The translations under genes were made by a program, and so were the position numbers. The notes beneath the pieces are model-generated. The model did not search any database. It saw nothing but the letters and a program-made list of their open reading frames with translations, and was not told the origin of the DNA. From Paracamarosporium sp. OC-R06-R3 (lineage: Eukaryota > Ascomycota > Dothideomycetes > Pleosporales > Didymosphaeriaceae), in assembly GCA_019828545.1 (NCBI GenBank), contig JACVRA010000704.1, forward strand, positions 1 through 27,917: a DNA stretch of 27,917 nt, written 5' to 3'. Of this stretch, positions 3,391 through 27,844 are shown one piece after another; position 1 is the stretch's first letter, and each line of letters opens with the position of its first letter.

Positions 3391-3435
3391 TTAATAACTA
3401 AAACATGTATAAATATAGTGCTATTTTACTTATTA
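3391..3435 (+). repeat. AAAACATGTATAAAT element, copy 1 (upstream of atp9)
   Basis: A 45-base stretch in the cox1-atp9 spacer that matches 21686-21730, downstream of orfD, at about 40 of 45 positions. Its core AAAACATGTATA also occurs after trnF at about 1032. It resembles the 5' half of a tRNA-like element. Confidence 0.6.
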
Positions 3436-3455: not shown

Positions 3456-3744
<289 letters not shown>

Positions 3745-3776
3745 TATTTTAAAGAAAAATTAAAAATAAGGGGGGG

Positions 3777-4055
3777 GGTAAAAATTATAAATTTTTATCT
3801 TTATATTCCCAGTAGGGATTTAGTTTAATCGGTAAAAACGTATATAAATAAGTTAAAACTTATATATATATATAGGTTCGACTCCTATAATTCCTGGCTT
3901 AGAATTAGGTACTAAGCGGTATTTAATTTATATTTTTATAAAGTTAAATATCTGAAATCCTTAGCATTACAAAATAATTTACTTAAAATAAACAAAATAA
4001 TTTTCAACAAAATTTAAATGCAATAAAAAACAACAAACCTTATATATATTTTTTA
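3777..4055 (+). repeat. atp9-nad3 spacer, copy 1 of a ~280-bp duplication
   Basis: This spacer, with its tRNA-like element and the nad3 leader, recurs at 10182-10465. Between 3811 and 4019 I see only a different number of TA units and one T/C substitution. Divergence rises towards both ends. The copy directly precedes nad3 here and orfB there. Confidence 0.93.
3814..3896 (+). ncRNA. tRNA-like element (t-element) between atp9 and nad3
   Basis: A 7-bp acceptor-like stem (AGGGATT/AATTCCT), a D-arm-like GTTTAATCGGTAAAAAC and a proper T-arm (ATAGG-TTCGACT-CCTAT) are present. The anticodon arm is replaced by an A/T-rich segment containing ATAAG-TTAAAA-CTTAT, with no normal seven-base loop. It is therefore probably not a functional tRNA but a tRNA mimic that could be cut by RNase P and RNase Z to separate atp9 and nad3 mRNAs. 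A second copy lies at 10220-10304. Confidence 0.55.
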
Positions 4056-9535: not shown

Positions 9536-9606
9536 ATAGCTATTATTTTTTAACTTTTCAATAATCTTTTTAGAGATTTGTTGTTGTATACTTGTATATA
9601 TATATT
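9536..9606 (+). promoter_or_regulatory. atp9-type leader in front of orfA
   Basis: It shares TAGCTATTAT and then AATAATCTTTTTAGAGATTT with the atp9 leader, with an insertion between them and a more diverged end. The promoter-like TTAGAGATTTG is at 9570-9580. It suggests orfA is expressed from a copied atp9 signal. Confidence 0.6.
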
Positions 9607-10179
9607 ATGGTTATGATTATGGTACAACATTTTGAAGCTTCATGTAATAGCAGTTCATTTAACGGTTATGTAGGAATAGTTGCATTAGGTATTGGGTTAA
9701 TACCACTTGTTACTCCTCCAGTGGCAATATTAATAATTACGGGTATTGCTAAATTTAGATTAAAAATAATAGATAAACAAAACTTAGCTGAGGATAAGGG
9801 TAAAATCGATATAGAAGATAAACCCTTATATACTACAAATAGTTCAAAGAATGCTACAGTATCTAATACTACAGTATCTCCTTCTAATAGTTCAGAATTT
9901 CCTACTAGTACTTCTGTAACTCCTTCTGATACAGGAGGTAATAATCTTGTAAAGGATCCAAGTAGTATCCTTAAGGGATATATAGATGATTTATATAAAG
10001 CTCTTACAAAAGGGGACAATTTGCTTCAAGATGAAAATTTGGGTTGACTGGTTTATAACAGCCGGGTACCTTCAGAAAAAGAAGCTGCGGAACTTCTTGA
10101 GTTATTTATGAAAAATCAAGAAGTTCCAGAAATTCTTGTTGAATTTTTGAATAATCTTAATAAAATGAATATCTTTTAA
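9607..10179 (+). CDS. accessory ORF A, unrecognised membrane protein of a four-member family
   Basis: Not a gene I recognise. From ATG 9607 it is 190 residues, reading TGA 10045-10047 as Trp; a TTG at 9592 would add five residues. Residues about 15-50 are hydrophobic (GYVGIVALGIGLIPLV, then AILIITGIAKF) and probably span the membrane. A Ser/Thr/Asn-rich linker follows at about 80-120. The C-terminus carries the family motif: G136-D137, L140, W147-L148-V149, N151, V154-P155, then acidic helices. It sits behind an atp9-like leader and ahead of a copy of the atp9 3' flank, so it takes the place of atp9 in a duplicated locus. The linker is much less AT-rich in sense than the core genes. Function unknown. 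Confidence 0.75.
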
Positions 10180-10181
10180 AA

Positions 10182-10465
10182 GGGTATAAATTATAAAATT
10201 TTATCTTTATATCCCCAGTAGGGATTTAGTTTAATCGGTAAAAACGTATATAAATAAGTTAAAACTTATATATATATATATAGGTTCGACTCCTATAATT
10301 CCTGGCTTAGAATTAGGTACTAAGCGGTATTTAATTTATATTTTTATAAAGTTAAATATCTGAAATCCTTAGCATTACAAAATAATTTACTTAAAATAAA
10401 CAAAATAATTTCCAACAAAATTTAAATGTAATAAACAACAACAACAAACCTTATACTTTTTTATT
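10182..10465 (+). repeat. atp9-nad3 spacer, copy 2, between orfA and orfB
   Basis: Near-identical to 3777-4055 over its centre. It includes a tRNA-like element and ends in a nad3-type leader that leads into the orfB ATG with similar spacing. Confidence 0.93.
10220..10304 (+). ncRNA. tRNA-like element, copy 2, between orfA and orfB
   Basis: Same folding potential as 3814-3896: identical acceptor, D-like and T-arm sequences and one more TA unit. It would give the orfA and orfB transcripts the same processing punctuation as atp9 and nad3. Confidence 0.55.
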
Positions 10466-10819
10466 ATGAATATTGATTTTACTACATTTGATTACGATGC
10501 TGCTGTAACAGCAGCAATTGCAGCTGCAAGTGCGCACCCTAATGATTTACTTATTGTGGGTGCTATATTTTTATGTGTTTCTACAATTAGAGTTGCATAT
10601 GTAAATTTTATTAAGGAAACTAGAGCAACCATTGCGGAGGAAAACAGATTCTCTGAAGAAGAAATTACAAATCTTAGAGAGTCATTACAACAACACACTA
10701 ATAATTTAGATAGTGGAGATAGTAAGCTAGTGGAGGTCTGTTGGGAATGGATTGTTAATAACGAATACATTCCACGTGTGGAAGAAATAATAAGCATTTT
10801 ACTACAATTAAATGTTTAA
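10466..10819 (+). CDS. accessory ORF B, unrecognised single-span membrane protein
   Basis: Not recognised; 117 residues. An Ala-rich N-terminal region (11-24) is followed by one hydrophobic span at about 27-45 (NDLLIVGAIFLCVSTI). A charged, probably helical segment (ETRATIAEENRFSEEEITN) and the family motif follow: G84-D85, L88, W93-E-W95-I-V, N99, I102-P103, then a short amphipathic helix. Both Trp codons are TGG, while the core genes I read use TGA. The span resembles orfC (I..V.T.R.A). Its leader is a copy of the nad3 leader, so it takes the place of nad3 next to orfA. Function unknown. Confidence 0.78.
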   Translation: MNIDFTTFDYDAAVTAAIAAASAHPNDLLIVGAIFLCVSTIRVAYVNFIKETRATIAEENRFSEEEITNLRESLQQHTNNLDSGDSKLVEVCWEWIVNNEYIPRVEEIISILLQLNV

Positions 10820-10850
10820 TTTATATTATAAATTAAACATTTAACTTTTA

Positions 10851-10953
10851 ATTAATGTGGTGTATATAATTTAATTATTATTATATATGGGTTTGGAAGT
10901 AATAAAAATATATTTTTGTATATTAAAGTGTTTATATATATAATTTTTTAACT
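10851..10953 (+). promoter_or_regulatory. cob-type leader in front of orfC
   Basis: Aligned with 11456-11560. The last ~50 bases are almost identical, including AATAAAAATATATTTTTGTA and ATTAAAGTGTTTATATATA, ending just before the start codon in each. The first half has diverged. Confidence 0.85.
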
Positions 10954-11370
10954 ATGCAAAATATAACAAAGTACGTAGAATTAGCTAAAGACGCTTCAAA
11001 TTTTTTTGATCAAAATACTCCAACAGGTGTAACTTTAGCCTTAATGGTAACTATACTATATACTGTTTGGACAGCGAGATTTGCCCTTTCGATAATTGTA
11101 GATAACCCTGATATAACAACACCATGTAGGTTAACTGAAGGTATGTTATATGAATTCAATAGTTTACACTATCTATTTACTGAAGAATTTTTATCTTCAT
11201 TAACTTTGGATTGTTTAAACCCTATTACCTCAGAGGTTTTAGAACAATTAAAAGCCGAACTCCTTATGGGGGACGCTTTTCTTCTGGACTCCGGTCTGGA
11301 TATCATAGTAGGTATGAATTCCATATCTCAAGCCGTGTTAGAAAGTCAAATTCTTCTATTATATATTTAA
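10954..11370 (+). CDS. accessory ORF C, unrecognised single-span membrane protein
   Basis: Not recognised; 138 residues. A short soluble N-terminus is followed by a hydrophobic span at about 26-50 (GVTLALMVTILYTVWTARFA, then LSIIV), a variable region, and the family motif: L104-M105-G106-D107-A, L110, L115-D-I-I-V, with N at a shifted place. It is most like orfD, whose G-D also lies at 106-107 after LLEM. The Trp in the span is TGG. The stretch 11255-11305 is unusually GC-rich, with CTC, CTT and CTG leucines, unlike the TTA-only style of the core genes. Cob leaders lie on both sides. Function unknown. Confidence 0.75.
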   Translation: MQNITKYVELAKDASNFFDQNTPTGVTLALMVTILYTVWTARFALSIIVDNPDITTPCRLTEGMLYEFNSLHYLFTEEFLSSLTLDCLNPITSEVLEQLKAELLMGDAFLLDSGLDIIVGMNSISQAVLESQILLLYI

Positions 11371-11455
11371 ACTATTTTATTTGTAAAAATTTTTTTTCTA
11401 TAGATAATGGTTGTTTTATATTATGAACAAATTAAGGCTAAAGTTACAAAAAAAA

Positions 11456-11560
11456 ATTAATGTGTTGTGTGAAAAAATTAATTATTATTTTATAAAGGTT
11501 TGAAAGTTAATAAAAATATATTTTTGTATATTAAAGTGTTTATATATATATATATTTTTT
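11456..11560 (+). promoter_or_regulatory. cob leader, the likely source copy
   Basis: The 105 bases before the cob ATG, duplicated before orfC at 10851-10953. The two copies bracket orfC as direct repeats. Confidence 0.8.
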
Positions 11561-13902
11561 ATGAGAATTTTTAAAAGTCATCCTTTATTAAGATTAGTTA
11601 ATTCCTATGTTATAGATTCACCTACACCATCTAACTTAAGTTATTTATGAAATTTTGGTTCGTTATTAGCTCTTTGTTTAATAATACAAATTGTTACAGG
11701 AGTTACATTAGCTATGCATTATACACCTAGTGTAGCTGAAGCTTTTAACTCTGTTGAGCATATTATGAGAGATGTAAATAATGGTTGATTAATACGTTAT
11801 TTACATGCAAATACTGCATCTGCATTCTTTTTTTTAGTTTATTTACATGTGGGTAGAGGTTTATACTATGGTTCATATAAAGCACCTAGAACTTTAACTT
11901 GAATTATAGGTAGTATAATTCTTATAGTAATGATGGCAACAGCTTTCTTGGGTTTGTCAAATAGCCCAAAATGACACAAACAAAATTATATTTATAAAAA
12001 TAACAAAAATAAAAACAATTTAAATAAAAAATACTATAGTACTAATACTAATTCAAGTAATTATAGTAAAGTAGTAACTGATTTTTTATCTGATAAAAAT
12101 TTAAAGGCAGTAACTTGTTTTGAGGATTTACAATTACAGGAAACTAAAAATAAAATAAATGAATATTCAAAAAATAAAGCTGGTATTTATTTAATATTGA
12201 ATAAAGTTACATTAGATTATTATATAGGTTCTGCATCTACTAATAGATTTTATTCTAGATTCTATAAACATTTAATAAGTTTAATAGGAAGTAAAATTGT
12301 TAAAAATGCTGTAAGAAAATATGGTGTTAATAATTTTGCATTTATTATATTAGAATTATTTCCAGAAGAAGTAAATAAAGAGAATAATAAAAAATTATTA
12401 AATTTAGAAGATTTCTATCTTAAATCCCTTTTACCTAACTATAACATACTTACTGAAGCGGGTAATAGTTTTGGATACAAACATACAGAAATAGACCGTA
12501 TTAAAATGAAAGCTAATTATAGTGAAGAACGTCGTAATAGAATAGGATTACTAAATAAAGGTAAAAATTTAAGTGAAATTACCGTAGAAAGGATGAAAGA
12601 AAAAGCCTTTTTAAGATCATCTTATAATTATAGTGAAGAAGGTTTAGCTAATCTGAAAAAAAATTCTAAACCTATTATACTTTATAACAAAGATGGTACT
12701 GTATACGGGGAATATAATTCTATTGTAGATGGAAGTAAAAGTTTAAATTGTTCTATTAAAACCATATCAAGAGCTTTAAGATCTAATAGTAAAATATTAA
12801 AGAGAACTTGATATGTAAAATATAAATAAATAATTTTGTTTGTGTTATAGTCACACAAGTCGAAAACCTTATGTAACTTATAAAAGAAAATAAGGCTAAA
12901 GTGTAATATCCTGACAAGGATATTGAGAAATATTAATTTCTTGGCAATGTCAGTGAAAACGGTTAAAATTGTTTAATATCTAGACCGTCGGTTATTTATA
13001 TGATCGCTACAGACTGGGTCACTGATGGGTAGCTGAAACGTTACTTAATGTACAGTCGGAACTTTGCACTTAACGTGTATATAATATACGAATTCAAAGT
13101 TATTATAGCATTGTAATTTTACAATGTAAGTTTGTATGTTTTACCTTATGGTCAAATGTCATTATGAGGAGCAACAGTTATTACTAATTTAATGAGTGCT
13201 ATACCTTGAATAGGACAAGATATTGTTGAGTTCTTATGAGGAGGTTTTTCAGTTAATAATGCAACTTTAAATAGATTTTTTGCATTACATTTTGTATTAC
13301 CTTTTGTATTAGCAGCTTTAGTTTTAATGCATTTAATTTCATACCATGAAACTGTAGGATCAGGTAATCCTTTAGGTATATCTAGTAATTATGATAGATT
13401 ACCTTTTGCACCTTACTACATATTTAAAGATTTAATAACAATCTTTTTATTTTTCTTTGTTTTATCTTTATTTGTATTCTTTATGCCTAATGCATTAGGT
13501 GATAGTGAAAATTATGTAATGGCTAATCCTATGCAGACTCCTCCTGCCATAGTGCCTGAGTGATATCTTTTACCTTTCTATGCTATATTAAGATCTATAC
13601 CTAACAAATTATTGGGTGTTATAGCAATGTTCTCTGCTATATTAATTATATTAGTTATGCCTATAACTGATTTATCTAAATATAGAGGTTTACAATTTAG
13701 ACCTTTAAGTAAAGTTGCTTTCTATGTATTTGTAGCTAATTTCTTAATATTAATGCAATTAGGTGCAAAACATGTTGAATCACCTTTTATAGAATTTGGT
13801 CAAATTTCAACTGTTTTATATTTTTCACATTTCCTTGTAATAATGCCTTTAGTTAGTTTTATTGAAAACACTTTAGTAGAACTTATTACTAAGAAAAATT
13901 AA
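11561..13902 (+). CDS. cob: cytochrome b (exons 11561-11953 and 13135-13902)
   Basis: Core subunit of complex III, which carries electrons from ubiquinol to cytochrome c. Joining 393 nt of exon 1 to 768 nt of exon 2 gives 386 residues, the usual fungal length. The four heme-ligating histidines fall at H82, H96 (exon 1) and H183, H197 (exon 2). PEW (PE then TGA-Trp, 13556-13563) is the Qo-site motif. The group I intron interrupts [15 protein letters not shown] after nucleotide 393. Trp codons are TGA. The 5' leader is duplicated before orfC. Confidence 0.97.
11954..12829 (+). CDS. intron-encoded GIY-YIG homing endonuclease, fused in frame to cob exon 1
   Basis: The frame runs on from cob exon 1 through TGA-Trp codons to TAA at 12827-12829, giving 291 intronic residues. 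A low-complexity Asn/Lys-rich linker ([10 protein letters not shown]) is followed by the GIY-YIG domain: [20 protein letters not shown] carries both signature triplets. Next come an R-F-Y-S-R-F segment, an N-F-A-F-x-I-L-E strand and E-D-F-Y-L-K. The C-terminus ([19 protein letters not shown], then a helix-turn-helix) resembles a NUMOD1 DNA-binding module. It would cut intronless cob alleles to spread the intron and may mature from a fusion precursor. No break seen, so probably intact. Confidence 0.9.
11954..13134 (+). mobile_element. group I intron in cob at position 393
   Basis: The exon ends in T and the intron in G, as group I introns require. P1 is visible: exon TTGGGT pairs with intron GCCCAA at 11964-11969, with the T-G pair at the splice site. 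The catalytic core lies after the ORF (about 12835-13134), including CAGACTGGG near 13009 and ACAGTCGG near 13050 as plausible P7 strands. The intron carries a GIY-YIG endonuclease in frame with exon 1. It is the only intron I see in a protein gene here. Confidence 0.9.
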
Positions 13903-13954
13903 TATATTTCATGAAAAGATCAGAAGCTAAATATTATATTCCCCTTTTTTTTTA

Positions 13955-14025
13955 GGAGCTTGAGTAGAAGGTTCTACGTTTTGACTGCAAATTGAAATAT
14001 AGGGATTCGAGTTCCCCGAGCTCCT
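13955..14025 (+). tRNA. trnC: tRNA-Cys (GCA)
   Basis: Acceptor GGAGCTT/GAGCTCC, anticodon GCA at 13987-13989, T-arm GGGA-TTCGAGT-TCCC. Lies between cob and nad1. Confidence 0.9.
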
Positions 14026-14394
14026 TGATTTATAGTATAAAATTTATTTTAGTTTTATATTAAAAATCAAAATTCATTTTTGTTTTTCCATAGTTTATCA
14101 ATAACTTTATCTAGTATTTCGTATAATAATATTACGAACTATAGAGCCATATATTCTATATTTATTAATTTACATAAAAATTCAGGTATTGTTAGATGAC
14201 AATCTATTAAAAGACAAATTGTACCTGTTTTATTCTAAAAAATTAAATTAAATTCTAATTGTAAAATATTGGTTTTAAAAATATATAAAGTAATTATAGT
14301 ATTAAAAAAATTTTTAGTTTTTTATTAAAATTTATATATTTAATTATTTTTTTTTATTATTATTTTAATGTTTATAAATAAATATACATAATAT
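14026..14394 (+). other. trnC-nad1 spacer with possible coding relic
   Basis: A 369-base gap. A frame open from 14053 to TAA 14236-14238 (61 codons, no ATG; TTG 14080 or ATT 14059 could start it) reads plausibly as protein, ending NLHKNSGIVRWQSIKRQIVP and five more residues. It includes codons less AT-biased than the spacer. I do not recognise it; it could be a relic of an intron ORF or an unknown gene. The rest, 14239-14394, is A/T-rich with no structure I can name. A seven-codon ATG frame at 14368-14391 stops just before nad1. Confidence 0.35.
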
Positions 14395-15462
14395 TTGATT
14401 AGTTTATTATCTCTAATTTCTATTGCTGAGGGTCTATTAGTTATAGTGCCTGCTTTATTATCTGTTGCTTTTGTTACTGTAGCTGAAAGAAAAACTATGG
14501 CAAGTATGCAAAGAAGATTGGGTCCTAATATTGTAGGTTATTATGGGCTTTTACAAGCATTTGCTGATGCTTTAAAATTATTATTAAAAGAATATGTTGC
14601 TCCAACTCAAGCTAATATTGTTTTATTTTTCCTTGGACCTATTATAACATTGATATTTTCTTTATTAGGTTATCTTGTAGTTCCTTACGGTTCAGGATTA
14701 TATATTTCAGATTTTAGTTTAGGTATATTATATATGTTAGCTGTATCTTCTTTAGCTACTTATGGTATATTATTAGCTGGTTGATCTGCTAATTCAAAAT
14801 ATGCTTTTTTAGGTTCTTTAAGAAGTACAGCTCAATTAATTAGTTATGAGTTAATATTAAGCTCAGTTATATTATTAGTGGTTTTACTTTCAGGTAGTTT
14901 AAATTTAATATCTATAGTAGAATCACAAAGAGTAATAAGTTTTGTATTTCCTTTATTTCCTTTATTTTTAATATTTTTCATAGGTTCTATAGCGGAAACT
15001 AATAGAGCTCCATTTGATTTAGCTGAGGCTGAATCTGAACTTGTTAGTGGATTTATGACAGAACATTCATCTGTAATATTTGTTTTTTTCTTTCTTGCTG
15101 AGTATGCAAGTATTATTTTGATTTGTGCATTAAATAGTTTATTATTTTTAGGAGGTTATTTAAGTATAGTACCTTTAGATATTTTAATTAGTATTTTAAA
15201 TGTATTTTTTAATGTTAAAGAAACTATTTTTTTTGATTTAATTATAAACATTTCTTCTTCTCCTTTAAATTTAGCTATTAAAACTAGTGTATTGATATTT
15301 GTATTCATTTGAGTAAGAGCCTCTTTCCCTAGAATCCGTTTTGATCAGTTAATGTCAGTATGTTGAACAGTGTTACTACCTGTTATAATTGCATATATTG
15401 TATTAATACCATGTTTTGTATATTCATTAGATATGATACCTGTAAATATAGCTTTAATATAA
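14395..15462 (+). CDS. nad1: NADH dehydrogenase subunit 1
   Basis: Complex I membrane subunit at the quinone-binding junction, 355 residues. Family motifs are [32 protein letters not shown] and [20 protein letters not shown], part of the quinone-pocket loop. Internal TGA codons, for example 14782-14784 and 15310-15312, are Trp. No ATG is available: the upstream in-frame ATG 14368 is cut off by TAA 14389-14391. Initiation at TTG 14395, or ATT 14398, is inferred. Confidence 0.95.
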
Positions 15463-15631
15463 AATTAAGGACGAAAAAAATTTTTTCTTCATATATCTAA
15501 ATATATACCACAATTTAAATATAAAATATATAAAATTTTAAAATTTTATTATGTGTATTAAAAATCAGCGTATGTGAGTTGTATAAATGTATATTAAATT
15601 ATATATATATGCAGTAAATAGAAAAAAAAAA

Positions 15632-17095
15632 ATGTCTTTATTATTATTATTAATACCTTTAATTGGTATAAGCTTTATTGTTTTAGAGTCTAATTATGGT
15701 TTACATTTAGCTAATATGAAAATAAAATCTATAGGGTTGATTACTTCAATCATTAATTTAATAATTTCTTTATTTATGTTTATAATATTTGATTTTTCAG
15801 GTAAACATTTTCAATTTATTGAAGAACAATATAAAATAAATTATTTTGATATATATTTAGGTGTAGATGGTTTATCTATATACTTTGTATTATTAACAAC
15901 AATAATAATGCCTATTGCATTATTATCTAATTGAAATTCAATACAATCTAAAAATATACTATCTTTTGTGGTTATAATATTACTTTTAGAAACTTTATTA
16001 TTAGCAGTATTTTTAGTTTTAGATATATTGTTATTCTATATTTTTTTTGAGAGTATATTACCTCCTTTATTTTTATTAATAGGTTTATTTGGATCAAGTA
16101 ATAAGGTAAGAGCAAGTTTTTACTTATTTTTATATACTTTATTAGGTTCGTTATTTATGTTATTATCTATAATAACAATGGCCTCTATAATGGGAACTAC
16201 TGATTTTGATGCTTTATTTAAAACAAATTTTGAGTATACAACACAATTATTTTTATTTTATGGTATATTTATAGCTTTTGCTGTAAAAACTCCTACAATT
16301 TTTTTAAATACTTGATTATTAAAAGCTCATGTAGAATCACCTTTATCTGGTAGTATAATTTTAGCAGGTATAGTTTTAAAATTAAGTTTATATGGAATAT
16401 TTAGATTAATTTTACCTTTATTGCCTAAAGCTTCTTTAAATTATACATTTATAGTTTATGTAATAGGTGTAGTAACTATTATATATGCTAGTTTTAGTAC
16501 TCTAAGAACTATAGATGTTAAAGAGCTTATAGCTTATTCATCTGTATCTCATGCAGCTGTGTATCTTTTAGGTGCATTTAGTAATACTATACAAGGTATT
16601 GAAGGTGCTATAGCTTTAGGTTTAGCTCATGGTTTTGTATCTTCTGGTTTATTTATATGTGCAGGAGGAATTTTATATGATAGATCATCTACTAGATTAA
16701 TAACTTATTATAGAGGTATGGGACAAATTATGCCTATCTTTAGTATATTATTTTTTATTTTATCTTTAGGTAATTGTGGTGTTCCATTAACTTTGAATTT
16801 TTTAGGAGAATTTATGTCAATATATGGTGTATTTGAAAGAATGCCTATTTTAGGTATATTAGCTAGTTCTTCTATAGTATTCTCTGCAGCTTATACTATA
16901 TTTATGTACAATAGAATAGCATTTGGTGGTTCTTATTCTATTTTCTTTAAAGAAAATTTAAGAGATGTTAATAAAAGAGAATTTATAATGTTATTAATTT
17001 TTGTAATATTAACTGTATTATTTGGTATTTACCCTTCTCCTATTTTAGATGGTTTACATTATTCAGTTTCTTCATTAATATATAATATTAATTAA
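15632..17095 (+). CDS. nad4: NADH dehydrogenase subunit 4
   Basis: Antiporter-like proton-pumping subunit of complex I, 487 residues. Family features are DGLSIYFVLLTT, FESILPPLFLLIG, the loop KTPTIFLNTWLLKAHVESP, and ELIAYSSVSHAAVYLLG. Starting at ATG 15632 gives MSLLLLLIPLIG, the normal N-terminus. An in-frame ATG at 15587 would add 15 residues including a Lys run (NRKKK) and is less likely. Confidence 0.96.
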
Positions 17096-17127
17096 GATTA
17101 AATTAATTTGTTTTAATTTATTTTTAG

Positions 17128-17198
17128 TTCTTATTAGCTCAATGGTAGAGCAGAATACTTCTAATATTTTGATCTAAGTTCGAATCCTAGATAAGAAT
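17128..17198 (+). tRNA. trnR: tRNA-Arg (TCT)
   Basis: Acceptor TTCTTAT/ATAAGAA, D-arm GCTC-AATGGTA-GAGC, loop TTCTAAT with anticodon TCT. Reads AGR, the main arginine codons here. Confidence 0.9.
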
Positions 17199-17319
17199 GA
17201 TTATTATAAAATATATATATATTTTATATATAATTATGTGTTTGTTATCCTGTAATAAAGATATGTAATATATATATATATATATATAACTTTATATCTA
17301 TATTAATAAATATAAAAAT

Positions 17320-17466
17320 ATGCCTCAATTAATACCTTTTTTTTTTGTAAATCAAGTTGTATTTACTTTTGTTATATTAACAGTATTAGTTTACACATTT
17401 TCTAAATTTATATTACCTAAATTTGTTCGTACTTTTATATCACGTATTTATATAAATAAATTATAA
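17320..17466 (+). CDS. atp8: ATP synthase F0 subunit 8
   Basis: A small single-span F0 stator protein, 48 residues, starting [12 protein letters not shown], the standard fungal signature. A hydrophobic span ([15 protein letters not shown]) is followed by a basic tail. It lies 66 bases ahead of atp6, the usual atp8-atp6 pair, probably on a shared transcript. Confidence 0.95.
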
Positions 17467-17532
17467 TAATTACGTAATATGTTGGAAATCCAACCTTAAA
17501 ATACACTAAGTATGTATGTATACATAGCAATA

Positions 17533-18303
17533 ATGCAAGTAAATTACATATTAAGCCCATTAGACCAATTTGAAATTAGAGATTTACTTTCTCTAAATAT
17601 TAGTTTATTAAATAACACTCATATATCTTTAACAAATATAGGTTTATATTTATCAGTAGGAATTATATTAATAATAAGTTATAGTTTATTAGCTACTAAT
17701 AATAATAAAATAATACCTAATAGCTGATCATTAAGCCAAGAAACATTATATTTTACTGTACATGGTATAGTAATTAATCAAATAAATTCAAATAAAGGAC
17801 AAGTATATTTCCCTTTTATATATTCATTATTTATTTTTATTTTAGCCAATAATTTATTAGGAATGATACCATATAGTTTTGCATCTACATCTCATTTTGT
17901 TTTAACTTTCTCTATGAGTTTTACAGTTGTTTTAGGTGCAACAATTTTAGGTTTTCAAAAACATGGATTAAAATTCTTTTCTTTATTTGTACCTTCTGGA
18001 TGTCCTTTAGGTTTATTACCTTTATTAGTTTTAATTGAATTTATTTCTTACTTATCAAGAAATGTTTCATTAGGATTAAGATTAGCTGCAAATATATTAT
18101 CTGGACATATGCTTTTATCTATTTTAGGTGGATTTACATATAATATAATGACAAGTGGTTTATTATTTTTCTTCTTAGGATTATTACCTTTAGCATTTAT
18201 AATAGCTTTCTCAGGTTTAGAGTTAGCTATTGCTTTTATACAAGCTCAAGTTTTTGTAGTTTTAAGTTGTTCTTATATTAAAGATGGATTAGACTTACAT
18301 TAA
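17533..18303 (+). CDS. atp6: ATP synthase F0 subunit a (subunit 6)
   Basis: Proton-channel subunit of F0. From ATG 17533 it is 256 residues, starting MQVNYILSPLDQFEIRDLL. SPLDQFEI is the conserved fungal N-terminal region, where the propeptide is usually removed. The essential arginine lies in SLGLRLAANILSGH, and GLELAIAFIQAQVF is the last conserved helix. ATG 17512 lies seven codons upstream in frame (263 residues) and cannot be excluded. One TGA (17725-17727) is Trp. Confidence 0.95.
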
Positions 18304-18333
18304 TTATAATCTTATATATGTTTTAAAACAAAA

Positions 18334-18404
18334 GCTCTTATAGCTCAATGGTAGAGCAGGATACTGTTAATATCCGTATAGATGTTCGATTCATCTTAAG
18401 AGCT
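18334..18404 (+). tRNA. trnN: tRNA-Asn (GTT)
   Basis: Acceptor GCTCTTA/TAAGAGC, D-arm GCTC-AATGGTA-GAGC, anticodon GTT in GATACTGTTAATATC. Confidence 0.93.
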
Positions 18405-18416
18405 AGGGTTATGCCC

Positions 18417-18626
18417 TATAATAGGTATTTTATACCAGTAAATGGAAAGTTCGGAAATTATATAAAAATACACGTATAATAATAATACGAGATCAAGAGA
18501 TGTTGGGGGTTTAGTAGAAACTAAAAAAACTTTATAAATTAAAAATTTATGTATTGTTTTCGAGCATGTATCCCCTTATTTAGTTTTTATTTAGAATCAT
18601 AATTATACAGAAACCGTCTTATTATT
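18417..18626 (+). ncRNA. rnpB: mitochondrial RNase P RNA
   Basis: The trnN-rns spacer holds both conserved P4 strands of RNase P RNA: GGAAAGTTCGG at 18444-18454 (CR-I type, compare bacterial GGAAAGUCCGG) and ACAGAAACCG at 18607-18616 (CR-V type). They are about 155 bases apart. An outer P1 helix, TAATAGG 18419-18425 with CTTATTA 18618-18624, encloses them. The total of ~210 nt is close to the 232 nt I recall for Aspergillus nidulans mitochondrial P RNA. It is the catalytic RNA for tRNA 5'-end maturation, with nuclear proteins. Ends approximate. Confidence 0.82.
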
Positions 18627-18687
18627 AATAATATATATATATTATTATCTCTAATCTTAATGTTATTATGCATTAAAAAAAAAATTA

Positions 18688-20120
18688 TTTTTGAGTTTGA
18701 TGATGGCTCTGATTGAACGCTGTCCAAGTACTTGACACATGCTAATCGTACGACTTTATTTATTTTTATGTAAAGTAGTGGTGTACAGGTGAGTAAATGA
18801 TAATTTGGCTACCTTAAAGTAAGAGTAAATCTCTTATAAAAAAAAAAGGAAATCAAAATTCTGCTTTAAGATGTTAATCTTTATCTCGGTGAAGTAGTAG
18901 AAGAGGTAATGTCTTTTTCTAGCTAACACTCGTAGTCGTGACTGAGAGGTCGATCGACCACATTGGGTCTGAAAAAACCCCAATGCGTATTAGTACAGCA
19001 GTGAGGAATATTGGTCAATGGTCTAACGACTGAACCAGTAACTTGGAAGAATGTAAATGTATTTTAATTAATACAATAACGATTAATTCGTATAAAATTC
19101 TAAATAGGATAATGATAATGACAATTTCCTATTTATAAGTCTTGACCAAATTACGTGCCAGCAGTCGCGGTAATACGTAGAAGACTAGTGTTAGTCATCT
19201 TTATTAGGTTTAAAGGGTACCTAGACGGTAAATAACACTTGAGTAGAGTATTTATTTACTAGAGTTTTATGTGAGAAGGAAGAACTTCTGGAGTAGTGAT
19301 AAAATACGCTGATACCAGAGGGACTGGTTACGGCGAAGGCGTCCTTCTATGTAAAAACTGACGTTGAGGGACGAAGGCTTGGGTAGCAAGAAGGATTAGA
19401 TACCCTAGTAGTCCAAGCAGAAAATGATGAATGTCATAGACTAGATAAAAATTTAGTTTATAAATGAAAGTGTAAGCATTCCACCTCAAGAGTACTATGG
19501 CAACATATAAACTGAAATCATTAGACCGTTTCTGAAACCAGTAGTGAAGTATGTTATTTAATTCGATAATCCGCGAATAACCTTACCACAATTTGAATAT
19601 ATTAAGTTATTACAAGCGCTGCACGGCTGTCTTTAGTTAATGTCGTGAGATCTGGTTAACTCCTATAATTAACGAAAACCCTCATTTTATTTGTATATAT
19701 AAAGTGGTTCTCCAGTATAGTGGAAAGATAATAGGGATTAAGACAAGTCATCATGGCCTAAATATTGTGGGCTATAGACGTGCCACATATGCCTCTACAA
19801 AGGGATGCTATATTGCGAAATGGAGCTAATCCCCAAAATTGGATATAATATGGATTGTTGTCTGTAATTCGACAGCATGAATAAGGAATTACTAGTAATC
19901 GTGAATCACCATCGTCACGGTGAATCTAATCTCAGCTAGGTACTAACCACTCGTCAGGCGCTGAAAGGAGTATGTGCAATAAGTTTGGTTTGTTTATATA
20001 TTAATATACATGGTCCTTGATGTATAAATATGTAGGCATAATTTTCGTATGCATGACTTTAATTGGTGTTAAGTCGAAATATGGTTCGTGTAATGGAAAT
20101 TGCACGGGATTAATAACCTG
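18688..20120 (+). rRNA. rns: small-subunit rRNA
   Basis: Universal SSU segments are present in order: TGATGGCTCTGATTGAACGC near the 5' end, GTGCCAGCAGTCGCGGTAAT at about 19156 (530 loop), ATTAGATACCCTAGTAGTC near 19397 (790 region), TGTCGTGAGATCTGG near 19640, and TTGCACGGGATT near the 3' end. Length about 1.43 kb, no intron seen. Both ends approximate; the 3' boundary lies before an A/T homopolymer-rich spacer. Confidence 0.95.
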
Positions 20121-20197
20121 AATAAAAAATAAACTTTAATTTGTTTGTTAAAAAAAAAAACTATGTTTTTTTTTTAAAAAAACTTTGTTTTTTTTAA

Positions 20198-20282
20198 AGG
20201 AAGGTTCCATTATTGGTAAAATGGGTTGAGCTGTAAACTCAATAGCAATATGCTTTTATGAGTTCGAATCTCTTGCTTCCTA
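20198..20282 (+). tRNA. trnY: tRNA-Tyr (GTA)
   Basis: Class II length of 85 nt with a long variable arm. Acceptor AGGAAGG/GCTTCCT with one mismatch, anticodon GTA in TTGAGCTGTAAACTCAA. Confidence 0.9.
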
Positions 20283-20371
20283 AAAATACATGTATAAATA
20301 ATTGTTTTTTATTTTCCTTATTTAGATAAATATATATATATATATTTATGACAAAAAAATAAAATAAATAT

Positions 20372-20998
20372 ATGAATAATATAAATATATTAAAAGATAT
20401 AAATTCAGGTTTTATGCCTGAAGTGTTAGATATAATTTATTTATTATCTATTGTATTTGGTATTTCAATAATAATAAATAAAAATCCTATTATTTCGGTA
20501 TTATTTTTAATAGGATTATTTGTAAACATCTCTGGTTTATTAATAATAGTTGGATTTGGTTTTATAGGATTATCTTACATATTAGTATATGTAGGAGCTG
20601 TTTCTATTTTATTTTTATTTATTTTAATGTTAATAAATATTAGAATATCAGAACTTACAAATGAAACTAGTAATGATACACCTTTAGCTATTTTAACTGT
20701 TATGCTATTTTACTTTTTAATTTCTCGTATTTTACCTGGAAATTTAAATTTATTAAATACAAACGTAGATAATTCGCATGTAATTGATATAAATATTAAT
20801 CAATATATATATGATGAACAAATACAATATGCAAGTAGTAAATCATGAGATACTTCTTTAGTAGATATAACACATATAACGGGTATAGGTAATGTTATGT
20901 ATACAAATTATGCTATTTTACTTATTATAGCTTCTATTATATTATTATTAGCTATGGTAGGTTCTATTGTGATTACAAAGAAGGGAGAAAATAAATAA
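20372..20998 (+). CDS. nad6: NADH dehydrogenase subunit 6
   Basis: Complex I membrane subunit, 208 residues. The conserved third-helix region reads SYILVYVGAVSILFLFILML, with the conserved Tyr. Near the C-terminus, reading TGA 20846-20848 as Trp leads into a last helix (NYAILLIIASIILLLAMVGS) and the tail ITKKGENK. The variable loop in between is Asn-rich. It sits between trnY and the orfD cassette. Confidence 0.95.
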
Positions 20999-21122
20999 TA
21001 TATTATTAGCTAAATTCTATAGCTAAATAATTACAAAGTGTATATAAGAGTTAATTATGTTTTTTTTATTTATATGGGTTAGGATAGGTAGACAAAAGTT
21101 TTTTAAATTTTAATAATAGAAC

Positions 21123-21175
21123 TTTTTAATAATCTTTTTAGAGATTTAGGTTGTATAATTATATTTATATATTTA
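21123..21175 (+). promoter_or_regulatory. exact copy of the atp9 leader in front of orfD
   Basis: 53 bases identical to 3468-3520. The promoter-like TTAGAGATTTA is at 21138-21148. The identity ends exactly at the start codon (atp9 ATG 3520, orfD ATG 21176), which points to a recent copy or ongoing gene conversion. Confidence 0.88.
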
Positions 21176-21601
21176 ATGTGAGTTCTAGAAATAGATTGAA
21201 ATGCTTTTGTCGCTGATGCACTTGTCCAAGCATCAAATATTTTAGCTTTTAATGCAGTTATGGCTGTAAATACCTCTCAAGGTCTAGTTTTTGTAAATCA
21301 TATTGATTGAAATTCTCTGGCTATTATATTTATAAAAATTAAAAATATGAGAAAAAAATATACTAGTTTTATTGACAATGTTGAAGAAAGAATACCCGAA
21401 CAAGGAGAACGACCAAGACCTGGAATGACTAGAGAGCTCATTAATGAATATGAAAATATTAAAAATGAAGGTTACAGGCTTCTAGAAATGGGAGATGCTA
21501 GGCTAAATGCTTTCAATTGGGATTGAATTACTACTAATAGTCACGTTCAATTAAATCAGGAGCAAGCTATTGAAATTTTAATGAGAATAACTCAGTATTA
21601 A
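21176..21601 (+). CDS. accessory ORF D, unrecognised protein of the orfA-D family
   Basis: Not recognised; 141 residues, visible only when TGA is read as Trp (four TGA, one TGG). N-terminus MWVLEIDWNAFVADALVQ; two modestly hydrophobic stretches at about 20-42 and 46-56 could be membrane-associated. A charged middle (RKKYTSFIDNVEERIPEQGE) follows. The C-terminal motif is LLEMGDARLNAFNWDWITTN: G106-D107, L110, W115-D-W117-I, then V-Q and a short helix. It matches orfB (GDSKLVEVCWEWIVNN) best and orfC in position. It lies between nad6 and cox3 with an exact atp9 leader upstream and an atp9-spacer element downstream. Function unknown. Confidence 0.75.
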
Positions 21602-21685
21602 ACAATAGTATAAATTATTTTTATAACAAATCTACATAAGATTTAAATTATAAATTTTATAGTTAACCCCTCTATAGGGATTTAG

Positions 21686-21730
21686 TTAATAGCTAAAACA
21701 TGTATAAATGTAGTGATATATTGCTTATTA
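21686..21730 (+). repeat. AAAACATGTATAAAT element, copy 2 (downstream of orfD)
   Basis: Matches 3391-3435 at about 40 of 45 positions. It is preceded by TATAGGGATTTAG, like the start of the atp9-nad3 tRNA-like element. It closes the orfD cassette on the cox3 side. Confidence 0.6.
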
Positions 21731-21808
21731 TATTACAAAAAGGAGGATAAAAGAGAAAATTATGGTTTTTTATTTTTAATTTGTACGTTTATATATAATA
21801 TTTGATAT

Positions 21809-26174: not shown

Positions 26175-27844
26175 TTAGCTTAAGTCCCCTAATATCATAA
26201 GATATTATATATAATTTGGGTAAATTTCAAAAACAACTTTTAAAGTGAATTTGAAGCGAAACTTATTTTAGCTTTAATTTTATATTTTATATAAAATAAA
26301 ATAAGGACGTTCAACGACTAAAAGGTGAGTATTGCTAACAATAATCCTTATTAGATACGCCCAACATCTTTATAAATTATAATTAGTATAAATATTATTA
26401 TTATGAAATAATAATGAAATAGACTTGATATAATGTCAAGCTTGTTATTTTAATAATAACATTAAATAAAAATATGTTAAATATTATAAAATCTAAATTG
26501 AATATCTCTTATAAAAAGGATAGTAATAATAAAAATGTTGCTATAGATTATAAAAATTTTGTACCTGCTATAAGAGATTGAAAAAATAGTATTTATGTTT
26601 ATAATAAAAATACTTTAAGTTTAATACCAGTAGCAAGTAATTATATTATGAAATTGATTAAAGGTTATTTTACTTTATCAAATTTAAAATTAGAAAGAAA
26701 ATTAAGAAAAGAAAGATTACGTCGTAGATCAATAAAATTATCTACAAATAAAATTTTTTTAAGTGATGGTGAATTTAAACATACAAATGATAAAGTAATA
26801 ATTACATTGTATTTATATAATAGACAAAAATACAATTATTTATATAAATTAAAAAAAAGATATGTAAAATTATTTGTTAAAGCTAGATTTTTGGAAAAAT
26901 TAAATTTAATTAAATCTAAATGATTAAATCATTTACAAGAACAAAAAGAATTAACTAAAGATTTAATTAGAATTTTTCCTAGTTATAGTTATAAATTATC
27001 TTTTTTAGAAAGTTATTATTATAAAATGTATATTAAAAAGGCTTTAAAAAGACTAAAATTTTATATGTTTTATAAACAATTGCTTTATATTAATCAAAAT
27101 AAATTTAATTATTCTTATTTACAAGGTTTAATGTATTTAATAAAAAAAATTTTTAACAAAAATGTAGAATTAAATTTAATAAATTTAAAATATTTTTATT
27201 TTAATAGTGATATTTTTTCACAACCTCTAGTTTTAAAATTAAGAAAAAAAAGAAATTTATTAAGATATTTAAAAGCTTGTGTTAGAAAAGTAAAAATAAA
27301 AAAAACTAATGAAATAATAAATAATTATTTTTTTGATCTTAATAAATTGTCTAATGTAAAAGATTTTGATATTTTAAATAATTTGTTATTAAATTTATTA
27401 AAACAAAATGAAAAAAATTATACTAATAATACTGTGGTAAAAGATAAATATGATTTTAATATATTAAAATATATAATATTAAATAACATAAAATATAAAA
27501 GAGTATCTGGTGTTAGATTAGAAGCTGCAGGTAGATTAACTAAACGTTATACTGCATCAAGATCTCGTAATAAAGTTATTTATAAAGGTAATTTAGAAAA
27601 TACACTTTCTTCTGTTAAAGGTTATTCATCTGTATTATTAAGAGGAAACTTTAAACCTAATCTACAATATACTAAACTAAATTCTAAATCTAGAATTGGT
27701 TCTTTTGGTGTTAAAGGTTGAATTAGTGGTGAGTAAATTATCTGTATATTTTAATAAAATTATCCTTATTTATATAAAGATGAAGAAATAGTCTGAACCA
27801 TTTTTTGAAAAATGGAAATAAATATTTTATGGTAACAAAAATTG
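26175..27844 (+). mobile_element. group I intron in rnl (L2449-type site) carrying rps3
   Basis: It interrupts CTAGGGAT/AACAGGCTAATTTGCGC in domain V, the classic filamentous-ascomycete site that hosts rps3. The 5' exon ends in T and the intron in G. P1 can form between exon TAGGGAT and intron GTCCCCTA near 26184-26191. The core flanks the ORF, with the closing part after 27737. No homing endonuclease seen, so it is probably fixed rather than mobile. Confidence 0.92.
26474..27736 (+). CDS. rps3: ribosomal protein S3 (intron-encoded)
   Basis: Mitochondrial small-subunit ribosomal protein uS3, 420 residues from ATG 26474. It is very Lys/Asn-rich, as is usual for this gene. The C-terminal signature is clear: [20 protein letters not shown] at about 339-358, then [20 protein letters not shown] and GSFGVKGWISGE. 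TGA codons at 26579-26581, 26921-26923 and 27719-27721 are Trp. It is freestanding within the rnl intron, not fused to an endonuclease. Confidence 0.94.

Follow-up and report, generated by a model that had tools for sequence, protein, structure and literature searches.

Do four open reading frames (ORFs) without a named family in a compact fungal mitogenome make up one gene family, and by what means would such genes be expressed? This question is raised by a contig of Paracamarosporium sp. OC-R06-R3 (JACVRA010000704.1 of assembly GCA_019828545.1), analysed here over its stretch of 27,917 nucleotides, which we call the window. The initial annotation had described it as a compact mitogenome of about 28 kb, and the core mitochondrial genes, rRNAs and tRNAs present in the window bear out this identity. 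It had also placed orfA, orfB and orfC, which lie between nad2 and cob, and orfD, which lies between nad6 and cox3, in one family of small membrane proteins sharing a C-terminal motif that includes Gly-Asp (G-D). All four frames are open under genetic code 4. Their positions and those of the blocks around G-D are as follows; the two-block profile is described below.

9607..10179, + strand: orfA, 190 amino acids (code 4), with a hydrophobic N-terminal stretch, a linker and a C-terminal G-D domain
10466..10819, + strand: orfB, 117 amino acids, G-D at residues 84-85
10954..11370, + strand: orfC, 138 amino acids, G-D at residues 106-107
21176..21601, + strand: orfD, 141 amino acids, G-D at residues 106-107
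9982..10077, + strand: G-D block of orfA, residues 126-157, as placed by the two-block profile
10685..10780, + strand: G-D block of orfB, residues 74-105, used for training the profile
11239..11334, + strand: G-D block of orfC, residues 96-127, as placed by the two-block profile
21461..21556, + strand: G-D block of orfD, residues 96-127, used for training the profile

The frame of orfA was listed from an upstream TTG at 9592, and its ATG is at 9607. The Gly of G-D is residue 136 in the product of orfA, 84 in that of orfB and 106 in those of orfC and orfD (proteins A to D below), which confirms the identical position reported for C and D. Another motif reported as common to B and C, I..V.T.R.A, is present, but its spacing is really I...V.T.R.A, with the Arg at residue 42 in both proteins.

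The strongest feature that we saw at these loci had been missed in the initial annotation: each ORF is preceded by a copy of the 5' leader of a core gene. These copies are the top repeats of the window in a blastn self-comparison, which replaced a comparison with lax scoring that gave AT-rich noise. The segments concerned are listed below.

3468..3519, + strand: atp9 leader, either the source of the leaders of orfA and orfD or a sister to them (blastn self-comparison)
21123..21175, + strand: orfD leader, 100% identical to the atp9 leader over 53 nt (E = 5e-21)
9555..9606, + strand: orfA leader, copy of the atp9 leader, 86.5% identical to that of atp9 and 87.3% to that of orfD
3776..4055, + strand: atp9-nad3 spacer, or nad3 leader, with a tRNA-like element (self-comparison)
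10182..10465, + strand: orfB leader, copy of the atp9-nad3 spacer starting 3 nt after the orfA stop codon, 94.7% identical over 285 columns (E = 3e-125)
11455..11560, + strand: cob leader (self-comparison)
10850..10950, + strand: orfC leader, copy of the cob leader, 86.9% identical over 107 columns (E = 1e-28)
21644..21805, + strand: cox3 upstream region, parts of which resemble the nad3 and atp9 upstream regions (76-89%) and the translated 3' part of which matches the extension of P0022, a relative of orfD
3814..3896, + strand: tRNA-like element in the nad3 leader (Rfam tRNA, 49.1 bits)
10220..10304, + strand: copy of the tRNA-like element in the orfB leader (Rfam tRNA, 48.3 bits)

The alignments pair 3776-4055 with 10182-10466 (nad3 and orfB), 11455-11561 with 10850-10950 (cob and orfC) and 3468-3520 with 21123-21175 (atp9 and orfD), and the orfB leader corresponds to nearly the whole atp9-nad3 spacer. 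The fifth repeat, between the atp9 and orfA leaders, equals in score a match between the upstream regions of atp9 and cox3. In the four core-to-ORF alignments, the donor side ends no more than 1 base from the start codon, and so does the ORF side, or 3 nt before it in the case of orfC. Upstream regions of 110 nt from 18 genes, some with mechanically assigned start codons, were then compared in 153 pairs. Five pairs, all involving an ORF, stood out (z from 12.8 to 35.6; next pair 5.1), and 6 of the 153 scored above all of 200 shuffles. Beyond the start codons, the first 110 nt of the five top pairs had no comparable similarity (scores 14-22), indicating that the leaders are shared and the coding parts are not. 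No self-repeat listed for the window joins a core coding sequence to an ORF.

The segment of orfA and orfB mirrors the atp9-nad3 locus, with leaders, spacer and tRNA-like element alike. The gene order of the window is cox1-atp9-nad3-cox2-nad4L-nad5-nad2-cob-nad1-nad4-atp8-atp6-rns-nad6-cox3-rnl. In Aspergillus and Penicillium, atp9 is described between cox1 and nad3 in all genomes studied except one, a Talaromyces there called Penicillium marneffei, in which atp9 lies between nad2 and cob (PMC3562157). The mirrored layout, together with this position of atp9 in the Talaromyces, suggests that the orfA-orfB block may be an old copy of the atp9-nad3 locus in which the coding parts have been replaced, the replacement being a step that we infer. 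The two near-identical tRNA-like elements may be processing signals; they were missed by ARAGORN at default settings and called as Tyr(ata) only at relaxed settings. An ordinary Tyr(gta) gene is located at 20198-20282.

Relatives of the ORFs were collected in three protein searches, namely with protein D alone (one relative), with A, B and C aligned together (11 relatives of B and 8 of C) and with D aligned to its first relative and A (14 relatives of D, the first one included). No relative of A was obtained. Identities to the window proteins are 54-89% among the relatives of B, 55-96% among those of C and 49-60% among those of D, and the frames of these relatives have been kept open and alignable. 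The longest contigs for some of them (28,762, 30,052, 30,782, 31,985, 32,387 and 39,846 bases) have the size of a whole compact mitogenome. P0003 and P0010 are both encoded on contigs of 3639 bases, and P0009 and P0013 on contigs of 1668 bases; these matching sizes suggest, without proof, that B and C adjoin each other there too. One relative, P0017, 96% identical to C, is a partial hypothetical protein on a 518-base contig named for the bacterium Spirosoma jeollabukense, and it probably represents fungal contamination of that assembly.

The absence of a match to any known family, noted initially, was borne out, since neither the four ORFs nor their alignments had a convincing match in Pfam, NCBIfam, PHROGs or PDB sequences. 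Weak Pfam matches of A to Glyco_hydro_98C or DUF2681 and of B to DUF641 were rejected as below the cut-off or found in one member only. Also rejected were DUF4230, ArsP_2, MurD-like_N and Baculo_ODV-E27 (each in one of nine B members), Phage_Gene47 (one of 12 D members) and DUF5725 (one of nine C members). PHROG and NCBIfam matches of A and B (E = 0.021-0.075) and three PDB sequence matches of the B-D alignment (E = 0.72-2.4) were discarded. Pfam gave no LAGLIDADG or GIY-YIG match in the four ORFs, whereas the ORF in the cob intron matches GIY-YIG, and no polymerase or homing-endonuclease family was matched either. No relatives were present in the viral contigs or prokaryote genome contigs scanned, nor in bacterial plasmids, which were scanned with one C relative only. 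Nuclear copies were sought in the same assembly (43.1 Mb, 337 contigs) with the four proteins and one DNA stretch, and matches were obtained only in the window's own contig.

Whether the four ORFs belong to one family was examined with pairwise and profile comparisons. Smith-Waterman scores were 95 for B-D, 55 for A-D and 45 for A-B, reached by 0, 2 and 12 of 2000 shuffles, respectively. The scores of A-C (34), B-C (28) and C-D (25) were reached by 363, 905 and 1414 of 2000 shuffles, and pairwise comparison alone therefore ties C to no other ORF. In comparisons of profiles with homologues by hhalign, B and D were aligned over 112 columns with p = 9.2e-10 (full-length homologues), and A-D gave p = 1.9e-4 with two D sequences and 0.0022 with 12. 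The values for A-B, A-C and B-C were 0.002, 0.0069 and 0.014. In all five of these comparisons G-D was aligned on G-D. For C-D, p was 0.25 at G-D with two D sequences. Truncated sequences were left out (P0018, P0020 and P0021 of B; P0025, P0027 and P0034 of D; and P0017 of C in the two-block test only).

Hidden Markov models (HMMs) of a single block around G-D gave a mixed outcome for orfC. With the first set of blocks and training on A, B and D, none of 2000 shuffles reached C, P0008 or P0010 and 9 reached P0019; with training on B and D, the respective numbers for C, P0008, P0010 and P0019 were 7, 8, 228 and 51. The model trained on C was reached by 61 of 2000 shuffles for A and 46 for B, and it had no match at all in D and P0001. 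When more D sequences were added, training on A, B and D gave 0 to 37 of 2000 shuffles in six C members, the best match of P0007 lay off G-D, and P0019 scored below the best of 68 decoys; training on B and D placed all three C members tested off G-D (8 to 83 of 2000).

After these mixed tests, a two-block profile consisting of a membrane-type helix block and the G-D block was trained on B and D only. It set the G-D block on G-D in A and in all eight full-length C members tested, and their joint scores were matched by 0 to 1 of 1000 shuffles. A and the eight C members outranked all 333 decoys, which were windows of core proteins (atp9, atp8 and nad4L apart; most core membrane proteins included) and mechanical ORFs. 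The helix block was in register in seven of the eight C members (P0010 being the other) and off by one in A. Since the blocks were chosen with the motif known, the significance is somewhat flattered, and we take this test as good evidence that is not independent.

Predicted structures bear on the same point. Confident AlphaFold2 models of B (13 sequences; mean pLDDT 90.7, pTM 0.82) and C (9 sequences; mean pLDDT 89.7, pTM 0.83) have helices at residues 10-23, 28-57, 64-90, 94-98 and 105-115 in B, and at 7-20, 25-50, an insert of short helices, 93-112 and 126-136 in C. Both have a four-residue gap between the first two helices and Arg at residue 42. In each, the third long helix ends six residues past G-D and the last helix starts 20 to 21 residues past G-D. 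The comparison of models proposed initially, made here for B and C, showed the same layout of helices in these two. Fold searches in PDB returned common helical arrangements and bundles only.

From these comparisons, the homology of orfB and orfD is firm, judged from their sequences, and the case for placing orfA with them is good by way of the shared C-terminal domain. orfC can reasonably be assigned to the family by the joint profile and the same predicted helix layout, although it fails the pairwise and C-D profile tests. Profile comparison, named as a test in the initial annotation, gave similarity of differing strength from pair to pair and none of significance for C-D. Overall, the initial observation stands, its claim of one family is for the most part correct, and the leader copies add considerable interest.

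The description as membrane proteins held for part of the family. The best 19-residue Kyte-Doolittle means are 2.28 in A, 2.26 in B, 1.71 in C and 1.55 in D; two relatives of D that were also assessed have 0.99 and 1.07. A hydrophobic N-terminal part thus fits A and B, is borderline in C and is weak in D. The wording 'small membrane proteins' is supported for A and B and marginally for C, but D and these two of its relatives have no clear membrane helix, and the orfD product is probably not an integral membrane protein.

Relatives of orfD hint at exchange between lineages. The last 21 residues of the N-terminal extension of P0022 match the translated cox3 leader of the window at 17 positions, in frame up to the cox3 start and one codon beyond (score 86; 0 of 500 shuffles over 54 frames). 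The orfD homologue thus seems to follow a cox3-type leader there, as against the atp9 leader in the window, and leaders have probably been exchanged more than once. P0024, from the contig of 30,782 bases, is identical to P0031 in the C-terminal 45 of 45 residues and shares 58 of 95 N-terminal residues with it. With P0025, in contrast, P0024 shares all 95 N-terminal residues and 23 of 36 C-terminal ones, and the C-terminal 36 residues of P0025 are those of P0027. The C-terminal G-D domain therefore seems to have been exchanged as a block within the D family; assembly chimaeras are also possible.

Codon use differs between the ORFs and the core genes. Third positions of codons have 16-24% GC in the four ORFs, against 5-13% in the slices of core genes, the intron ORF and the rps3-type ORF that were examined. 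TGG occurs in orfB (2), orfC (1) and orfD (1) and in none of these other slices, which use TGA. TTA makes up 0.27-0.60 of leucine codons in the ORFs versus 0.71-0.94 in the other slices. These differences suggest that the ORFs have a separate ancestry or are under different constraints.

We consider it fairly probable that the four ORFs are a mitochondrial accessory gene family predicted to be expressed through captured leaders of respiratory genes. Each of these small helical proteins would begin with a short helix, continue with another helix that lies in or on the inner membrane and has a basic residue at its end, and close with the helical G-D domain. The leaders of atp9 (twice), nad3 and cob would have been acquired by recombination inside mitochondrial DNA, so that factors serving the core genes would process and translate the mRNAs of the ORFs, and the products would reach the inner membrane alongside subunits of the respiratory chain. 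In budding yeast, the translation of several mitochondrial mRNAs is described as dependent on activators that the nucleus encodes and that act on 5' leaders; Cbp1 serves COB and Pet111 serves COX2 in this way, and Atp9 synthesis requires Aep1 and Aep2. Most of the activators known are, by that description, restricted to such yeasts (PMC3978653). If counterparts of these activators exist in this fungus, a new ORF would need no more than a complete leader to be expressed along with its donor. The donors differ between the ORFs and, for orfD, apparently between species, which points to a general need for expression and not to a tie to one complex. Because the donor leaders vary in this way and orfA is without a relative, we are inclined to see in the ORFs selfish or dispensable genes and not a fixed respiratory subunit. 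We infer expression through the leaders, the direction of copying, the membrane placement and the function alike from sequence.

Several observations weigh against the capture of leaders by one family. Core leaders are weakly alike too: the atp9 and cox3 upstream regions are 89% identical over 45 nt (21686-21730 with 3391-3435), and the cox3 upstream region and the nad3 leader 76% identical (21645-21709 with 3782-3849), so that some leaders are shared without ORFs and core leaders are mosaic as well. The case of P0022 is a single protein; P0023 points to the same place in the cox3 leader without significance (43 of 500 shuffles), and the likeness of P0031 to the atp9 leader lies in low-complexity residues (11 of 500). 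In the protein searches, two of which included orfA, orfA retrieved only itself (P0002, cut at a TGA codon). The pairwise tests gave no link of C to A, B or D, and hhalign of C-D with 12 D sequences gave p = 0.077 with the best local alignment away from G-D. These last results, together with the B-D-trained single-block models that placed three of three C members off G-D, favour the possibility that orfC is unrelated to the other three and that its G-D likeness arose by chance. We nevertheless regard this as improbable, as the joint two-block score of all eight C members exceeded every decoy and the models of B and C share their helix layout, including the distance of G-D from the end of the third long helix. 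Similarly improbable is that the spacers are a dispersed repeat family homogenised by gene conversion, with ORFs that merely happen to be adjacent and are independent of the leaders. Pieces common to core upstream regions (atp9-cox3 and nad3-cox3) and the tRNA-like element held in one copy would agree with this; however, an ORF takes part in all five outstanding pairs among the 153, and random repeats would not lose their similarity right at start codons or 3 nt before them, as these copies do.

The remaining alternatives concern what the ORFs are. They could have been left behind, or carried in, by a mitochondrial plasmid or some other mobile element that inserted near core genes, a possible but unlikely origin with which their distinct codon use would be consistent; plasmid-derived polymerase genes are described between cob and nad1 in two Aspergillus-type mitogenomes (PMC3562157). 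The lack of a polymerase or homing-endonuclease match in Pfam argues against it, as does the absence of relatives in viral contigs and, for one C relative, in bacterial plasmids, a search whose scope lay outside fungal mitochondrial plasmids. They could also be a family of fixed accessory subunits or assembly factors, each tied by its leader to the complex of the donor gene. The donors belong to complexes I, III and V and the relatives of B and C are well conserved, but one leader serves two ORFs, the orfD relative seems to have a cox3 leader and orfA has no relatives, and we hold this possibility to be unlikely as well.

The window also contains features that stand apart from these questions. 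Gene names were read from translations, and Pfam confirmed atp9 (PF00137), nad3 (PF00507), nad2, nad6, cob (PF00033), cox3 and a VAR1-type ribosomal protein. Matches to the large rRNA model lie at both contig ends (1-185 and 23604-26217), with the VAR1-type ORF (26474-27736) between them, which would fit a circular map opened within rnl at a point downstream of that ORF. The reading frame of the first cob exon continues into an intron ORF, in which GIY-YIG and NUMOD1 domains were matched (11561-12829). A 37-nt near-perfect palindrome surrounds the orfB stop codon (10808-10844; 97% match to its own reverse strand).

Among known systems, the ORFs of plant cytoplasmic male sterility (CMS) are described as new mitochondrial reading frames that lie close to core genes and are joined to core-gene sequence, many of them encoding membrane helices (PMC3789559, PMC11312923), and a copied upstream region of a core mitochondrial gene is likewise present before the ORFs of the window. 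However, by these descriptions the plant ORFs are chimeric, and fragments of core coding sequence are common within them (PMC3789559, PMC11312923), whereas the first 110 nt of the window ORFs have no similarity to the donors and the four are paralogues. We class them as fungal mitochondrial accessory genes that resemble CMS-type genes in layout, and we claim neither membership nor kinship. A displaced copy of the region upstream of atp9 is also reported in another fungal mitogenome, that of Fusarium sacchari. As described, its cob-i393 intron contains copies of atp9 itself and of its upstream region together with the initial 24 bp of the gene (PMC7285627), while the copied leaders in the window precede unrelated ORFs. 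The accessory ORFs of Aspergillus and Penicillium are similarly non-core, common to some related mitogenomes and without known homologues, and differ in that, as far as that description extends, a single family or copied leaders are not mentioned (PMC3562157). Among the titles and abstract beginnings listed in searches of open-licence literature, none concerned a fungal ORF family with copied leaders.

Accessory ORFs of fungal mitogenomes tend to be labelled hypothetical and set aside. Leader capture offers a concrete and testable account of how a new gene may gain expression in mitochondria, and, if true, these natural leader swaps would be useful for learning what fungal translation activators recognise outside yeast. 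That the family is a fungal counterpart of plant CMS genes, hijacking and repeatedly swapping the leaders of respiratory genes, exchanging its C-terminal domain between lineages and acting in competition among mitochondrial types or of the mitochondrion with the nucleus, is a doubtful proposition at present; if true, it would provide a possible fungal parallel to the male-sterility genes of plants.

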